From a virus, in the IMG/VR virus record IMGVR_UViG_3300025930_000019, positions 1 to 46,146 of that record: 46,146 nucleotides of DNA, one strand, 5' to 3'. Shown one piece after another: positions 3,494 through 24,190 of this stretch; the first letter of the stretch is position 1; every line of letters begins with the position of its first letter. The position numbers and the translations under genes were made by a program. The notes beneath the pieces were generated by a model. That model saw only the letters and a program-made list of their open reading frames with translations. It was not told the DNA's origin and did not search any database.

Positions 3494-4459
3494 CTAATGG
3501 CCGATGCGATGCGTGGCGGTTAAATACCCTTCCTCGCCAATCTGGAATCTCAGATTGTTGCCCAATCGCTGCTTAGCCTTGTTCAGCACTAAAATCGCTT
3601 GCTCGACACTGACCGGCTGCTTCGGAAATTGCAGGGTAAGGTTTTGAGGCAAGGCCGGTGCCGGTGCCGCTACCGGCGCTGGCGCGACAGGATGCGGCAC
3701 GAAAGCCTGTGACGGCAGCGGCGTATCAAAATGGCCGCTTTCTTCCAGTGCTTCCCGCAATTGCGGCACTTCGGCCGGATGAACCGGGGTTCCGGCTTTT
3801 GGCGGCTTGAATTTGGTCGGTATGACGCCAGTGGGAAGCTTGAAAACCAACTCGCTCCCATTGTCCTCATACAATTCGACATTGACCGATTTGATAATAT
3901 CAACCCTCTTGCTCAATGCCGGCAATTGGTCGCGGGACAACGACAGCCGCCACCCGCCACCCGCTTTAATATGGAATCCGCCGACAAGGCCCGGCATCCT
4001 TTCCTTTCCGGGCGGCAGCTTGGCCTCTTTAACGGCCAGCATGGGCGGCGCGCTAAGGTCGGGGCTGGCGCGCAATTCAAACGTCCAATGTGTCTTTGGC
4101 TTGTTATCCGGCGTCTTAAAGCGGTCGATTAGCTTGGAATTGCCGGGGATATGAAGAATGAGATTTTGGTGATTGAGGCTAAACCCGACATGGCCGCGCG
4201 CTCGTCGGCCCTTTATTTGGCCGGGCAGGATATCTAGGCGCTCCGCGCCCAACTCGCTCATTGTCTTTTTGAAGTCTCTAAGGGCGTTCTGGCGCGCTCG
4301 CCAATCGCTTGGGGAGCGCGGGACTGTCAGAAAGCGCGAGACGCCGCCGCGATGGAATACCATGCGCTTGTGCTTCCCGCCCTCATGTATCTCATGCTCG
4401 ACGCCTGGATAGTGACGCAATTCGGTTGTCACTGCGGCTATAACCGGGTTGCTTGGCAT
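3494..4459 (-). CDS. Unknown accessory protein with HicA-like N-terminus
   Basis: 321 residues, ATG 4459 preceded by AAAGGAGT. Residues about 10-75 (HEIHEGGKHKRMVFHRGG, then SRFLTVPRSPSDWRA and NALRDFKKTMSELG) resemble the small HicA/YcfA-like RNA-binding fold seen in many phage proteins, including the basic His-containing strand. That assignment is tentative. The middle is unrecognised. A Pro/Ala-rich linker at about 250-272 leads to a C-terminal helix. It has its own promoter candidate (4484-4514) and lies between the tail genes and attP, the usual place for lysogeny-expressed genes. Confidence 0.7.
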   Translation of the reverse strand: MPSNPVIAAVTTELRHYPGVEHEIHEGGKHKRMVFHRGGVSRFLTVPRSPSDWRARQNALRDFKKTMSELGAERLDILPGQIKGRRARGHVGFSLNHQNLILHIPGNSKLIDRFKTPDNKPKTHWTFELRASPDLSAPPMLAVKEAKLPPGKERMPGLVGGFHIKAGGGWRLSLSRDQLPALSKRVDIIKSVNVELYEDNGSELVFKLPTGVIPTKFKPPKAGTPVHPAEVPQLREALEESGHFDTPLPSQAFVPHPVAPAPVAAPAPALPQNLTLQFPKQPVSVEQAILVLNKAKQRLGNNLRFQIGEEGYLTATHRIGH

Positions 4460-4843: not shown

Positions 4844-5071
4844 TTATTTTCCCCCCGGCACGGCGGCGCCGCACGCTATTAGAACTTCCTCAATCTTAAA
4901 CAGGGCTTCCCCCTTGCTGTAGGCCAGCAGCACATCATTGTCCGTGTCGCGCTTGATAACCCACCACTCTTGCGGGTTGCGATATTTCGGCGGGTCGCCG
5001 CGCACGATATCCAGCAAGGTCCCCACCACGGCATAATGGCCATCGGCTATCTTTTTCGTTTTCATTGTCAT
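4844..5071 (-). CDS. Small unknown protein upstream of the XRE gene
   Basis: 75 residues, ATG 5071 with the ribosome site CCGGGAG. No family recognised. The compact sequence contains YAVVGTLLDIVRGDPP and WWVIKRDTDNDVLLAYSKGEALF, and is probably a small alpha/beta fold. It is first in the unit driven by the palindrome-containing promoter at 5098-5126. Small gene plus adjacent XRE gene looks like a toxin-antitoxin or immunity pair, but that rests on layout only. Confidence 0.6.
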   Translation of the reverse strand: MTMKTKKIADGHYAVVGTLLDIVRGDPPKYRNPQEWWVIKRDTDNDVLLAYSKGEALFKIEEVLIACGAAVPGGK

Positions 5072-5097
5072 TCGTAACTCCCGGTTGAATAATGGTG

Positions 5098-5126
5098 CGG
5101 GTAGCGTAACGCCTGTTACCCGTCAA
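5098..5126 (-). promoter_or_regulatory. Early-type promoter A with operator palindrome in the spacer
   Basis: Minus-strand -35 TTGACG (5126-5121), 17-bp spacer, weak -10 TACCCG (5103-5098). The spacer contains GTAAC-AGGC-GTTAC (5119-5106), a 5-4-5 palindrome also present in promoters B to E. It drives 5071-4549 and perhaps on to 3251. A repressor bound in the spacer would block RNA polymerase. Confidence 0.65.
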
Positions 5127-5325
5127 CTTGATTTGATATGCGTTGTTCAATTATCGTCAGTCCGCCTCCCGGCAGGCCAGGATTGGTCTGACCGCGAAAG
5201 GTTTCATGGGCCGCCAGCATCGCCCCGGCATAGTTGCCGGCCTCGACTGTTCCCAGCCGTTCAAGGCTCTGGCCGGGGCCGCGATTGTGCAAGCTTTCAA
5301 CCCGATAGACTGTCCAGATGGCCAT
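5116..5325 (-). CDS. Small unknown protein next to attP
   Basis: ATG 5325 (MAIWTVYRVE...) is chosen because AGGGAAA sits directly upstream; a longer frame from 5406 lacks a ribosome site. It encodes 69 residues with no recognised domain. Its 3' end overlaps promoter A by about 10 bases. After integration it would be the outermost gene at its prophage end. Confidence 0.55.
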   Translation of the reverse strand: MAIWTVYRVESLHNRGPGQSLERLGTVEAGNYAGAMLAAHETFRGQTNPGLPGGGLTIIEQRISNQVDG

Positions 5326-5381
5326 TTTCCCTGCCCTTGTCCGTTTTGCTGCTAACGCTATGAGTCTGAAACAGAATCCCA

Positions 5382-5400
5382 TGCGCTGTGATTGCGCTGT
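5382..5400 (+). repeat. Tandem arm-type repeats, left pair
   Basis: TGCGCTGT occurs at 5382-5389 and 5393-5400, an 11-bp period (one helical turn). The same 8-mer pair with the same period occurs at 5603-5621 on the other side of the tRNA-like core. This is how arm-type integrase sites are arranged around attP. The 20-mer 5381-5400 also occurs inverted at 22940-22959. Confidence 0.65.
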
Positions 5401-5493
5401 GACCACTGCAAAAAACGGGTTTTCAGGGGGTAAATTCGATTTCCGTGTGAAAAAAAGCGCAGTGTTTTCTAACCGTTTAGCGCGCTTGTTTAG

Positions 5494-5540
5494 CCTTCAC
5501 ACGGGTGAGGTCGCAGGTTCAAAACCTGCCGCGCCCACCA
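5494..5540 (+). other. attP: attP core: 3' half of a tRNA-Val(CAC) gene
   Basis: Read back from CCA (5538-5540): discriminator A 5537; acceptor strand CGCGCCC 5530-5536; T arm GCAGG/CCTGC around TTCAAAA (5513-5529); variable AGGTC; anticodon-stem strand GGGTG 5503-5507; loop TTCACAC 5496-5502, whose central triplet CAC reads valine. The 5' anticodon strand no longer pairs well and there is no 5' acceptor strand upstream, so this is a fragment. Integration here would restore the host tRNA 3' end. It lies 30 bp beyond the int stop codon. Confidence 0.82.
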
Positions 5541-5569
5541 TCGAAAAACCCCTGAAAACCCACAAAAAT

Positions 5570-6838
5570 TCAACCCGCCATCGCAATTACGTTACCCGCC
5601 GATGCGCTGTAAATGCGCTGTGCATCACAGAACGCTCCCGGCACCAAAGCCTCGATTTCGGCGATAATTTCATTGGTGACGGCCAGAACCAGGCCCAAGT
5701 TGGCCGGGTCGGCAACGGCGTATGTGTCGCTGATATCCGGCTGGACATGGCCCATCATCATCTTGCCCTGAATCCAGTTGGCTTCGCCCAGCCGCTTGCG
5801 TGCAAGCGTGGCCATCGACCGGCGGATAAGCTTCATGCCGCCCTCATAGGCAACCGCGTCCGGTTTCAGCGTTTTCATCATCCGCGACCACGTTGCGTTG
5901 GCCAGCGTGTTTGGCATGATTGGCTGCTTGGGCAGCGAGTCCAGCCATTCGCCGACCCAATCCCCAACCGGCACGGTGGCGCGGTATTTCGTGTTCTGCT
6001 CGCGCCCGGCCGGATTGAGCCGGAACACCCGAGCCTCGGAAACCCATTGCTTTGCCGAAGGCGTCAAGTCAGCTTCCAACACCGCTTCCGGCCGTCCCCA
6101 TGTCGCTACCGACAGGCGCAGATAGAAAAGCATGTTGGTCCGGTTCCGGCGCTTCCTGGCGCGCTCCACTTCGCTGGGCGCCTCGGGATAGAGGCAGTAA
6201 CGGAACATCGCCGCCAGCAGCGGGATATCCGCCCGCAAGTCGACCGGCTCTGACAGTTTGCCCGGCTGCTTGGCGGTGAACAGCGGCATCTTTTTGGCGA
6301 AGCGGATGGCCGCCCCAAGCGACAATACGCTGCCCTCAATCGTGCTGGCCTTGCGAAACTGAGGCTTGCCGCCCTTGCCGCGATAGAACGGCTCAGCGGC
6401 CATCCACTTGCGGAAATCCTTAACCCACGCCTCGGTGATGTTGGCGACCCGCACCGGCTTGTCGCCAATGTAGCGCTTCACATGGTCAAGCGATACGCGG
6501 ATGGATGAGGCGCTGATTTGGTCGTCGCCATGCCCCGTCATGTAATCGTCAATGATGCCGACGATTAAATCGCTTTCGTCGCCAAGGCCGGTGGTGGCTT
6601 GGCCACAGCGCGGACAGATGCAATCGCCAAGGTAAAGCCTGTCCAGCTTCTTCTCGGCCGCATCTAGGTCGCGGCCGGCCCGCCAGCGGTCATTCTGTTT
6701 CGTTTCCGAGTTATATTTGCGGATTTCATAAGTCCCGTCAGGCAGTTTCCACAGGCGGTAATCTCCCCGAATATGGACCGGCTTTTTGGCCTTCACGCCA
6801 CCACTCTTGGCGGCCTCTGATTTTGCAACTTTCGACAT
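5570..6838 (-). CDS. int: Tyrosine recombinase integrase
   Basis: 422 residues; ATG 6838 behind GGAGGAAGA. An N-terminal arm-binding and core-binding region (about 60-230) is followed by the catalytic domain. Visible features are LRLSVATWGRPEAVLEAD (catalytic Arg region), NTKYRATVPV (beta-hairpin Lys), the IRRSMATLARK box, MMMGH and the tyrosine in SDTYAV. The first residue of the box I expected to be His (HxxR) is unusual here (KLIRR). The small CPRC...C cluster near residue 95 is probably a zinc knuckle. The gene ends beside attP, and one pair of putative arm sites lies inside its 3' end (5603-5621). Confidence 0.92.
   Translation of the reverse strand: MSKVAKSEAAKSGGVKAKKPVHIRGDYRLWKLPDGTYEIRKYNSETKQNDRWRAGRDLDAAEKKLDRLYLGDCICPRCGQATTGLGDESDLIVGIIDDYMTGHGDDQISASSIRVSLDHVKRYIGDKPVRVANITEAWVKDFRKWMAAEPFYRGKGGKPQFRKASTIEGSVLSLGAAIRFAKKMPLFTAKQPGKLSEPVDLRADIPLLAAMFRYCLYPEAPSEVERARKRRNRTNMLFYLRLSVATWGRPEAVLEADLTPSAKQWVSEARVFRLNPAGREQNTKYRATVPVGDWVGEWLDSLPKQPIMPNTLANATWSRMMKTLKPDAVAYEGGMKLIRRSMATLARKRLGEANWIQGKMMMGHVQPDISDTYAVADPANLGLVLAVTNEIIAEIEALVPGAFCDAQRIYSASAGNVIAMAG
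5603..5621 (+). repeat. Tandem arm-type repeats, right pair (inside int 3' end)
   Basis: TGCGCTGT at 5603-5610 and 5614-5621, again with an 11-bp period and in the same orientation as the left pair. Together with 5382-5400 these bracket the tRNA-like core at roughly 60 and 90 bp. Confidence 0.65.
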
Positions 6839-11406: not shown

Positions 11407-11654
11407 TGCCCCGCCGCGCTGCCATCATCCGCCGTCTCGATGCGGCACTGGCCAAGATGCGCGAGCAGGGGATGGCGGTGCGCGCCATCTATCTCGATGA
11501 AACCGATTGGGATGCCTACAACGCGGCGCAGAGCAAGGCTTACGGCACTCCGCTAGTCACGTTCCGTTACGGTGATTATGAAATCCGCAGCGGCGAAAAC
11601 AGCCGCGTCTATTCCACGCATGGCATCGGCATTGCCGTCCCGAGGCGGGCATAG
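11406..11654 (+). CDS. Small unknown protein
   Basis: 82 residues, start overlapping the previous stop (TGATG). N-terminal helix followed by beta strands (AIYLDETDWDAYNAAQSKAY, then LVTFRYGDYEI). Not recognised; part of the tightly packed replication operon. Confidence 0.6.
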   Translation: MPRRAAIIRRLDAALAKMREQGMAVRAIYLDETDWDAYNAAQSKAYGTPLVTFRYGDYEIRSGENSRVYSTHGIGIAVPRRA

Positions 11655-12319
11655 TGCGCGTCCTGATTGTCTGCGAACGCTCTGGCGCGGTGCGGCGCGC
11701 GTTCCGGGCGCTGGGCCATGATGCGTGGTCATGCGACCTGAAACCGGCCGATGATGGCGATGAACATCATTTACAGATGGATGCGGTGCTGGCCGCTTAT
11801 TCGCATGGGCCATGGGATTTGCTGATTGGCCACCCGGATTGCACATTCCTGGCCAACAGCGGCAGCAAGCACCTTTATTCGGGCATGAAGCTGGAAGGCG
11901 GGCCGGAAGCCGAGCGCTGGGCGCGGATGGGCGCGGCAGCGCAATTTTTCGTTATCCTGTGGAAAGCCCCGGTCAAGCGGAAGGCGCTTGAAAACCCGAT
12001 TATGCAGGGCCACCCGCGTCGGCTGTTCGGCATCCGCCGCCCGTTCCAGATTATCCAGCCGTGGCAGTTCGGCGACCCCGAAACCAAGGCCACCGGCCTG
12101 TGGATTGATGGGCTGATGCCCTTGCGGCCGATTTACACGACATGGGCCGAGTGCCGCGAGGCGCTGGGCCTGCCGGCCGATGCCAAGCCGTTCGCGCGGA
12201 TGCACCGCATGGGGCCAAGCCCCGACCGTCAGCGGCGCCGGTCGGAAACCTATCCAGGCATCGCCGCCGCGATGGCCGAGCAATGGGGCGGCAAGGCCAG
12301 CGAAAGGCGGGCGGCATGA
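11654..12319 (+). CDS. DNA methyltransferase-like protein
   Basis: 221 residues from GTG 11654 (overlaps the previous TAG by one base). The N-terminus RVLIVCERSGAVRRAFRALG is the SAM-binding motif I of C5-cytosine-type methyltransferases. HPDCTFL occupies the place of the PCQ catalytic loop, and LENPI that of the ENV motif. WQFGDPETKATGLWI and RSETYPGIAAAMAEQWG are hallmarks of a common phage family annotated as cytosine methyltransferase-like. The Cys is present but the target domain is very short, so activity is uncertain. Confidence 0.75.
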   Translation: MRVLIVCERSGAVRRAFRALGHDAWSCDLKPADDGDEHHLQMDAVLAAYSHGPWDLLIGHPDCTFLANSGSKHLYSGMKLEGGPEAERWARMGAAAQFFVILWKAPVKRKALENPIMQGHPRRLFGIRRPFQIIQPWQFGDPETKATGLWIDGLMPLRPIYTTWAECREALGLPADAKPFARMHRMGPSPDRQRRRSETYPGIAAAMAEQWGGKASERRAA

Positions 12320-23213: not shown

Positions 23214-23897
23214 GTGACGCTGCATTATCACGGCACGCCGATAACCCCGTTCACGGCCTTTTATGCGATGGCCGGGGCGCATTTCTGTGTGTCGCATTTC
23301 CGGCCGGACCAGGTGCAGCAGGCCCATGCCATCGGCCAATCGGTGATGCTGGATAATGGGGCATATTCGGCGTGGCGCAGTGGCCGGCCGGTCAAGGATT
23401 GGCGGCCCTATTATGAATTTTGCGACCGTTGGCTGGACTATCCGACCACATGGGCGGTGATTCCCGATATCATTGCTGGCGATGAGGACGATAATTCGCG
23501 GCTGTGCCGGGCGTGGCCGTTTCCCGGCCGGGGCGCGGGAGTGTGGCACATGCATGAGAGTCTGAGCCGGCTGCTGGCGCTGATTGATACGTTTGAGCGG
23601 GTCTGCATCGGTTCGTCGGGCGCCTATGCGGCGCTGCTGACCGAGGCGTGGCAGCGGCGGATGGATGAGGCGTGGCGGGCGATTGACCGGGAGCATCGCC
23701 GGACGCCCCATATCCACATGCTGCGCGGGATGCAGTTAATCCGCCACCGCTGGCCGTTTGCGTCGGTCGACAGCGCCGATGTTGGCCGCAATCACAATGG
23801 CAGCCGTTGCCCCAAGCGGATGCGCGAGCGGTGGGATGCGGGGCAGTGTCCGGCGCGGTTTGGCGACCCCGGCCAGCAGGGGGAGTTGGCGGCATGA
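23214..23897 (+). CDS. dpdA: DpdA-like transglycosylase (7-deazaguanine in DNA)
   Basis: 227 residues from GTG 23214. It has the order of motifs of phage DpdA/TGT-fold proteins: SVMLDNGAYSAW (Asp about 47, base-recognition loop), AVIPDIIAGD, WHMHESLSRL, RVCIGSSGAY, and FASVDSADVGRNHNG (Asp about 186, the likely nucleophile). DpdA swaps guanine in DNA for preQ0-type bases, protecting phage DNA from restriction. It is shorter than cellular TGT and I see no clear CxCxxC zinc site. The QueD-like gene follows with a 4-bp overlap, which supports the assignment. Confidence 0.65.
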   Translation: MTLHYHGTPITPFTAFYAMAGAHFCVSHFRPDQVQQAHAIGQSVMLDNGAYSAWRSGRPVKDWRPYYEFCDRWLDYPTTWAVIPDIIAGDEDDNSRLCRAWPFPGRGAGVWHMHESLSRLLALIDTFERVCIGSSGAYAALLTEAWQRRMDEAWRAIDREHRRTPHIHMLRGMQLIRHRWPFASVDSADVGRNHNGSRCPKRMRERWDAGQCPARFGDPGQQGELAA

Positions 23898-24190
23898 AAT
23901 TTACCGGCGTCGGCGGCGTCCTGTCATGCGCCCACACCACGCCCAGCGGCGGGGTTCATGGCCATAGCTACAAGGTCAAGGTGTGGTTCCGCCACGGCTA
24001 CGATGCCGAGGAATTGCGGCGCCATCTGCAAGTCGTGCTGGACCAGCTCGACCATCGCCAGTTGCCCGACAGCATCCGCTGGGGCGAGGAACTGGCCGAG
24101 CATATCGGGCTGGCCCTGCCGGGCTGCATCAAGGTCAAAATCAGCCGCCCGGCCGAGCGGCTCTATGCGAAGTGGAAACCCGACAAATGA
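23894..24190 (+). CDS. queD: QueD-like 6-carboxytetrahydropterin synthase
   Basis: 98 residues, ATGA overlap with the DpdA-like gene. SCAHTTPSGGVHGHSYKVKV carries the three zinc His (14, 22, 24) of the PTPS/QueD fold. LDQLDHRQLPD matches the LDHxxLN catalytic Asp/His, and WGEELAEHI the substrate Glu. The residue four before HGH is Ser (18), where cellular QueD has the catalytic Cys; Cys12 lies elsewhere. It should act in preQ0 synthesis. QueC, QueE and FolE are absent, so the host must supply them. Confidence 0.78.
   Translation: MKFTGVGGVLSCAHTTPSGGVHGHSYKVKVWFRHGYDAEELRRHLQVVLDQLDHRQLPDSIRWGEELAEHIGLALPGCIKVKISRPAERLYAKWKPDK

Follow-up and report, generated by a model that had tools for sequence, protein, structure and literature searches.

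Gene layout of the D/Q locus

The window, that is, the whole stretch of DNA analysed here, is a complete IMG/VR virus record of 46,146 bases, with a direct terminal repeat of 99 bases at its ends and a G+C content of 60.6%. It encodes a tyrosine-integrase-like gene (5570-6838), RecT, a P22-like portal and a terminase, as well as the two adjoining genes studied here, D (GTG start, 227 aa) and Q (ATG start, 98 aa), whose features are collected in Table 1. An earlier note on this DNA, made from the letters alone, had described the two genes as overlapping at the start of a rightward unit, and this was borne out: they share 4 bp (ATGA) and stand first in a series of short, overlapping genes read rightward, and the called genes immediately to the left of D lie on the minus strand throughout, down to ~20.4 kb. 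The start sites match those of relatives (M[IT][IL]H[YF]HG...). A search for Rfam families, riboswitches included, found none in the window or in nine related loci, and a simple scan around the pair detected no coding-strand promoter and no terminator.

Table 1. Features of the D/Q pair, in window positions
Feature	Position	Strand	Basis
D, predicted short DpdA-type (TGT-superfamily) DNA 7-deazaguanine transglycosylase	23214..23897	+	phrog_887, AF2 model, viral fold matches, phiSM profile alignment
D, Asp47-Asn-Gly-Ala motif, likely counterpart of TGT DSGG	23352..23363	+	D47, N48 and G49 invariant (68 relatives); aligns with IDSGAFS of phiSM DpdA
D, Asp186-Ser187 motif, candidate nucleophile Asp by position	23769..23774	+	D186 and S187 invariant (68 relatives); aligns with VDS of phiSM DpdA
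Q, partner protein with a QueD fold (COG0720/PTPS superfamily); catalytic Cys and (K)ET Glu motif absent	23894..24190	+	Pfam PTPS, AF2 model, fold matches, 25 viral relatives
ATGA shared by the end of D and the start of Q; translation probably coupled	23894..23897	+	overlaps of 1 or 4 bases in 14/19 distinct Q/D-type pairs
Q, His14, first zinc ligand (AH motif)	23933..23935	+	invariant, 22 family members
Q, HGH (His22, His24), second and third zinc ligands	23957..23965	+	HGH invariant; residue -4 is Ser here, Cys in QueD
Q, Asp53-His54 dyad; catalytic pair in QueD	24050..24055	+	invariant, 22 members
Q, Arg85-Pro-x-Glu88, replacing the canonical (K)ET motif	24146..24157	+	R85 invariant, E88 >90%; aligned jointly with canonical QueDs, to within one residue in register

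D is a short DpdA

D matched phrog_887, named 'queuine tRNA-ribosyltransferase', over residues 1-193 (E 7e-46), and gave no match in Pfam and NCBIfam searches. Homologues are encoded in 102 phage records, the closest in Pseudanabaena phage Pam5 (55% identity), followed by Microcystis phage Mae-JY30, Rhizobium phage RHph_N3_2 and Caulobacter phage DMCA (52-53%), and the DpdA of Pantoea phage MED16 belongs to the same family at 38.9% identity. IMG/VR scans with a single D or Q sequence returned no matches, and alignment queries were needed.

The AF2 model of D is a beta/alpha barrel (pLDDT 94.4), whose top matches in BFVD were phage DpdAs or 'queuine tRNA-ribosyltransferases'; a weaker viral match (E 4.9e-3) was a protein of Vibrio phage nt-1, probably its DpdA2. 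Against the PDB, the high ranks held generic TIM barrels only, with arcTGT at rank 39, sequence searches of the PDB with D found no relatives, and the D profile gave no alignment with E. coli TGT in hhalign. A profile built from 68 D relatives did align with the DpdA of Cellulophaga phage phiSM (hhalign probability 97%), which likewise falls in phrog_887 and sits in a phage gene cluster with FolE, QueD, QueE, QueC and QueF. The comparison of a predicted structure with TGT that the earlier note had proposed thus yielded a confident barrel with phage DpdAs as its nearest viral structures and generic TIM barrels in the PDB; together with phrog_887 and a family embedded among 7-deazaguanine genes, the fold matches support the note's DpdA-like reading of D.

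D47 and D186 are invariant in the 68 relatives and are natural candidates for the TGT Asp pair, an equivalence suggested by their place in the sequence. The only invariant Cys in the same set is C131, which agrees with the earlier description of D as short and without a zinc Cys cluster. Because the DpdA of MED16, a phage with measured 2'-deoxy-7-amido-7-deazaguanosine in its DNA, is also without one, we do not regard the zinc Cys/His cluster, a TGT feature, as defining for short phage DpdAs. Judging from its family, D probably puts a 7-deazaguanine into DNA; we infer both the DNA substrate and the identity of the inserted base.

Q keeps the QueD fold and lacks QueD catalytic residues

Q scored 27.7 bits against Pfam PTPS (E 2.8e-6), above the curated cut-off, and its AF2 model (pLDDT 95.5) found its best PDB folds in the QueD/PTPS proteins of P. 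aeruginosa and E. coli (TM ~0.82), in line with the homology seen by hhalign (96-99%). The zinc-binding His triad (H14, H22, H24) and Asp53-His54 are invariant in 22 family members. Three motifs are diagnostic in this superfamily, CxxxHGH for QueD, CxxxxxHGH for PTPS-II and ExxHGH for PTPS-III (PMC5041015). Q reads SGGVHGH, with Gly at -3 and Thr at -6, so that the PTPS-II and PTPS-III signatures are absent, and none of its short relatives has Cys at -4, where the family shows R, S, D, E, G, A or H. The canonical (K)ET motif is also absent, an invariant Arg followed by P-x-E standing in its place; a firm Glu110-to-Arg85 substitution was considered and dropped, since the alignment register differs between methods.

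Against the NCBIfam QueD equivalog TIGR03367, Q reached 24.0 bits with a cut-off of 89.25, falling short by 65 bits. The earlier note had taken Q for a working QueD, which the missing CxxxHGH motif and this score do not support. Because the catalytic Cys and the (K)ET motif are absent and the equivalog cut-off is missed, Q should not be filed as QueD, and it is probably not a canonical CPH4 synthase.

We also looked at bacterial proteins of this kind. In one bacterial family, the genomes with a Cys-type PTPS have QueC, and the two with a Cys-less PTPS (G044, G113) are without a true QueC. The idea that a Cys-less PTPS serves as a bacterial QueD was unsupported, as G044, the only examined genome with a chromosomal RRP-type protein, is without a true QueC. 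Chromosomal PTPS-family proteins without the QueD cysteine were seen at L122:5974-6342 and L126:36-407; the genome of the former has no true QueC, and the protein is therefore probably not a QueD.

Q is consistently paired with DpdA-type genes

Viral loci were fetched with Q (25 loci) and with D (80 loci), and all their open reading frames were searched with profiles. Every one of the 25 loci fetched with Q contains a DpdA-type gene, which is D itself in 23. In the remaining two, Q lies directly beside a different DpdA-type gene: a phrog_1279 'queuine tRNA-ribosyltransferase' in L014 and, in L011, a protein of phrog_15826, with relatives that actinobacteriophage annotations call 'DpdA-like'. 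The order varies, Q-D or D-Q, and an overlap of 1 or 4 bases recurs in 14 of the 19 distinct Q/D-type pairs. That Q keeps this company with three families of DpdA-type genes is the strongest indication of a joint function with DpdA. One further phage locus, L040, carries two different short DpdA genes (3553-4242 and 5001-5681), ~0.8 kb apart.

Short DpdAs have exchangeable partners

D loci without Q may carry a VUT/PF02592 (YhhQ-type) transporter, here called V, a small protein, T, or a canonical QueD. The YhhQ family takes up preQ0 in E. coli (PMC5372724), and Hutinet et al. reported YhhQ in some phages, uncorrelated with any group (PMC6884629). T is an 80-residue family (phrog_37496) that adjoins a short DpdA in ~27 loci (e.g., L074:4756-5004 and L004:6675-6914). 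Its Cys-Pro, Glu and His residues are invariant and its profile weakly resembles phiSM QueF (probability 64%), so that T may be a minimal QueF-like enzyme with preQ0 as its substrate.

After dereplication of the D-selected loci at 90% identity into 66 clusters, Q was present in 10 and V in 30, and no cluster had both (Fisher p 0.0013); nor did Q occur together with T in any of the 66. V or QueC was found in none of 20 whole records of Q phages. Radical SAM proteins over cut-off (QueE candidates) occurred in 6/24 records with Q or another PTPS and in 0/26 others, and the one in L042 meets the cut-off (TIGR04508) for QueE, the synthase of 7-carboxy-7-deazaguanine (CDG). In L077, L084 and L091, a canonical Cys-containing QueD replaces Q beside D, accompanied in L077 and L091 by a radical SAM/QueE candidate.

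Loci with V or T appear to rely on a supply of preQ0. Those with Q contain neither of the two, nor QueC, and in some cases a QueE as well, and are most simply read as systems that use CDG itself or a CDG-derived base. The earlier note had named a preQ0-type base; the Q loci, without a preQ0-type transporter or QueC and some of them with QueE, point instead to a CDG-derived one.

Other neighbours were observed as well. Among 50 related phage records, the only QueC lies between a VUT transporter and a short DpdA (L093; G032:15619-16143). A small, conserved protein of phrog_9572 (named sulfatase-modifying factor enzyme), with the motif GGLE..ERADG.PIDPSRRY..LDF, adjoins a short DpdA at L002:10004-10258, L003:6681-6941 and L006:5518-5763.

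The likely host and its precursor genes

The window's portal is 56% identical to that of Sphingopyxis phage VSN-002, the closest cellular Q lies at a contig end in a Sphingomonas MAG (G043), relatives of the window's integrase occur in genomes of the same order as this MAG, and the terminase is closest to those of Brevundimonas phages. The host is likely alphaproteobacterial and probably a sphingomonad.

The earlier note had held that the host must provide the products of FolE, QueE and QueC, and had proposed looking for host que genes. In the genus of the Sphingomonas MAG, QueC was over cut-off in 60/61 genomes, and QueE adjoins QueC in those inspected closely (regions L153-L157), so the host can probably supply the QueE and QueC steps. 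This part of the expectation is plausible for the presumed sphingomonad hosts; a PTPS/QueD, by comparison, was detectable in 2/61 genomes only and in none of the other 59. That sphingomonads carry a Q-like QueD of their own was considered and set aside, as the Q profile matched just 2/61 genomes.

Restriction sites and the extent of modification

GATC does not occur in the window, where ~186 copies are expected, and GTAC (29 expected), CCGCGG (40), CCCGGG (25) and ACCGGT (23) are likewise missing, as is TCGCGA. The missing palindromes are a strong sign of restriction-site purging; the Q-carrying relatives show no GATC avoidance. In MED16, virion DNA contains 2'-deoxy-7-amido-7-deazaguanosine (dADG) at ~0.13% of G by LC-MS/MS, and the restriction enzymes tried were not noticeably affected by it (PMC8306585). 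A broad replacement of guanine would lessen the need for site loss; any modification is likely sparse, sequence specific or made for another purpose, and a genome stripped of GATC and other palindromes speaks against broad protection by such a modification. The case for restriction evasion, the function suggested in the earlier note, is if anything weakened by MED16, whose dADG had no noticeable effect, and by the loss of GATC, GTAC, CCGCGG and CCCGGG here. The window also holds a DNA methyltransferase gene (11654-12319; phrog_757, E 5e-52), which could give the phage a second DNA modification.

The proposed role of Q

Our best overall explanation, held tentatively, is that the two genes make up a DNA base-modification module in a temperate-type phage, in which D would be the transglycosylase and Q would process CDG. 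The host, or a phage QueE in relatives, would make CDG; the zinc-binding Q, translated in coupling with D, would supply or tailor D's base by processing CDG, for example by decarboxylation to 7-deazaguanine; and D would then insert the product, exchanging some guanines of the phage DNA for the free 7-deazaguanine base, as its family suggests. A reaction on CDG is favoured because the residues needed to cleave the side chain of dihydroneopterin triphosphate are gone from Q, whereas the metal site and the acid/base pair remain. We infer this reaction from what is observed, namely D's family membership, Q's fold, the conserved pairing and the missing residues, and we offer CDG as the substrate of Q with some reserve. 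More speculatively, Q might belong to an undescribed Cys-less QueD-fold family dedicated to DpdA modules and acting on CDG, perhaps as a zinc decarboxylase, with short DpdAs inserting a base other than preQ0 and swapping supply partners (Q, a YhhQ-type transporter, a mini-QueF-like protein, or QueE with QueD).

Some findings weigh against the CDG-processing module: D's PDB matches are generic, no alignment of its profile with E. coli TGT was obtained, and Q fills the slot of a canonical QueD in other short-DpdA loci (L077, L091), which fits a diverged QueD. The main rival holds that Q is a diverged, active 6-carboxytetrahydropterin synthase that feeds the QueE/QueC of the host, with D inserting preQ0 (or dADG). 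It would account for the retained QueD fold, Zn triad and Asp-His pair and for Q's place beside QueE and D, and a phage-encoded QueD step would be useful, since the presumed sphingomonad hosts have QueE and QueC and almost never a detectable QueD. However, Q has none of the CxxxHGH, CxxxxxHGH and ExxHGH motifs, its residue at -4 varies freely and is thus not catalytic in this family, the Glu motif of KET is replaced, and TIGR03367 is missed by a wide margin, and we consider an active synthase unlikely.

A further rival makes Q a zinc-stabilised accessory to DpdA without catalysis of its own, a subunit or base carrier that would hand over the base or influence how DNA is recognised. In its favour, D is much shorter than E. 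coli TGT (227 vs 375 aa), Q is probably translationally coupled to it, and the eukaryotic TGT works as a heterodimer. Yet Q pairs with three DpdA-type families, which would be odd for a dedicated subunit, many D loci are without Q, and neither the Asp-His dyad nor the Zn ligands vary, all of which makes such a role improbable. Least of all do we expect the pair to modify host tRNA or to boost host queuosine rather than act on phage DNA: the TGT superfamily origin of D would allow it, and phages with preQ0 genes and no DpdA have been suggested to boost tRNA Q (PMC6884629), but the phage DpdAs characterised to date have DNA as their substrate (PMC6884629), and the related MED16 has dADG in its DNA (PMC8306585). 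We retain the CDG-processing module as the best explanation.

Implications and comparison with known systems

The D/Q pair seems to be a novel form of an established type of DNA-modification system in phages, a compact two-gene cassette that would install a modified base in DNA. 'DpdA only' phages had formed a large unexplained class as to the source and purpose of their base, and the interchangeable neighbours of one short DpdA family each point to a supply route. A QueD-fold partner without the QueD catalytic residues predicts a new T-fold reaction, and annotations of the Q family as '6-carboxytetrahydropterin synthase' are probably wrong.

Compared with QueD (PTPS-I), Q has in common the fold (TM 0.82 to E. 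coli QueD), the Zn His triad and the Asp-His dyad, and differs in its length (98 aa vs 121 aa), in being without the catalytic Cys, in having R-P-x-E in place of (K)ET and in missing the equivalog cut-off. The reaction proposed for Q would match that of DpdL, which Cui et al. (NAR, 2023) reportedly described as a predicted 7-carboxy-7-deazaguanine decarboxylase; the likeness is one of proposed reaction.

The short DpdAs of MED16 and SW9 (DpdA/TGT_1 cluster, PMC8306585) resemble D in falling in PHROG 887, in size and in being without a zinc Cys cluster, but MED16 has no precursor gene beside its DpdA and was reported to be without preQ0 synthesis genes, whereas D is coupled to Q. In Pam5 and RHph_N3_2, as in the window, the D family has an adjoining precursor-supply partner, with overlapping genes in RHph_N3_2, but there the partner is a PF02592 YhhQ/VUT queuosine-precursor transporter, which never co-occurs with Q. 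The likeness extends to both genes in Caulobacter phage DMCA (PQ480021), where the two families stand side by side at 44-52% identity and the Q protein is also Cys-less, in an order reversed relative to the window, Q then D, with a 1 bp overlap.
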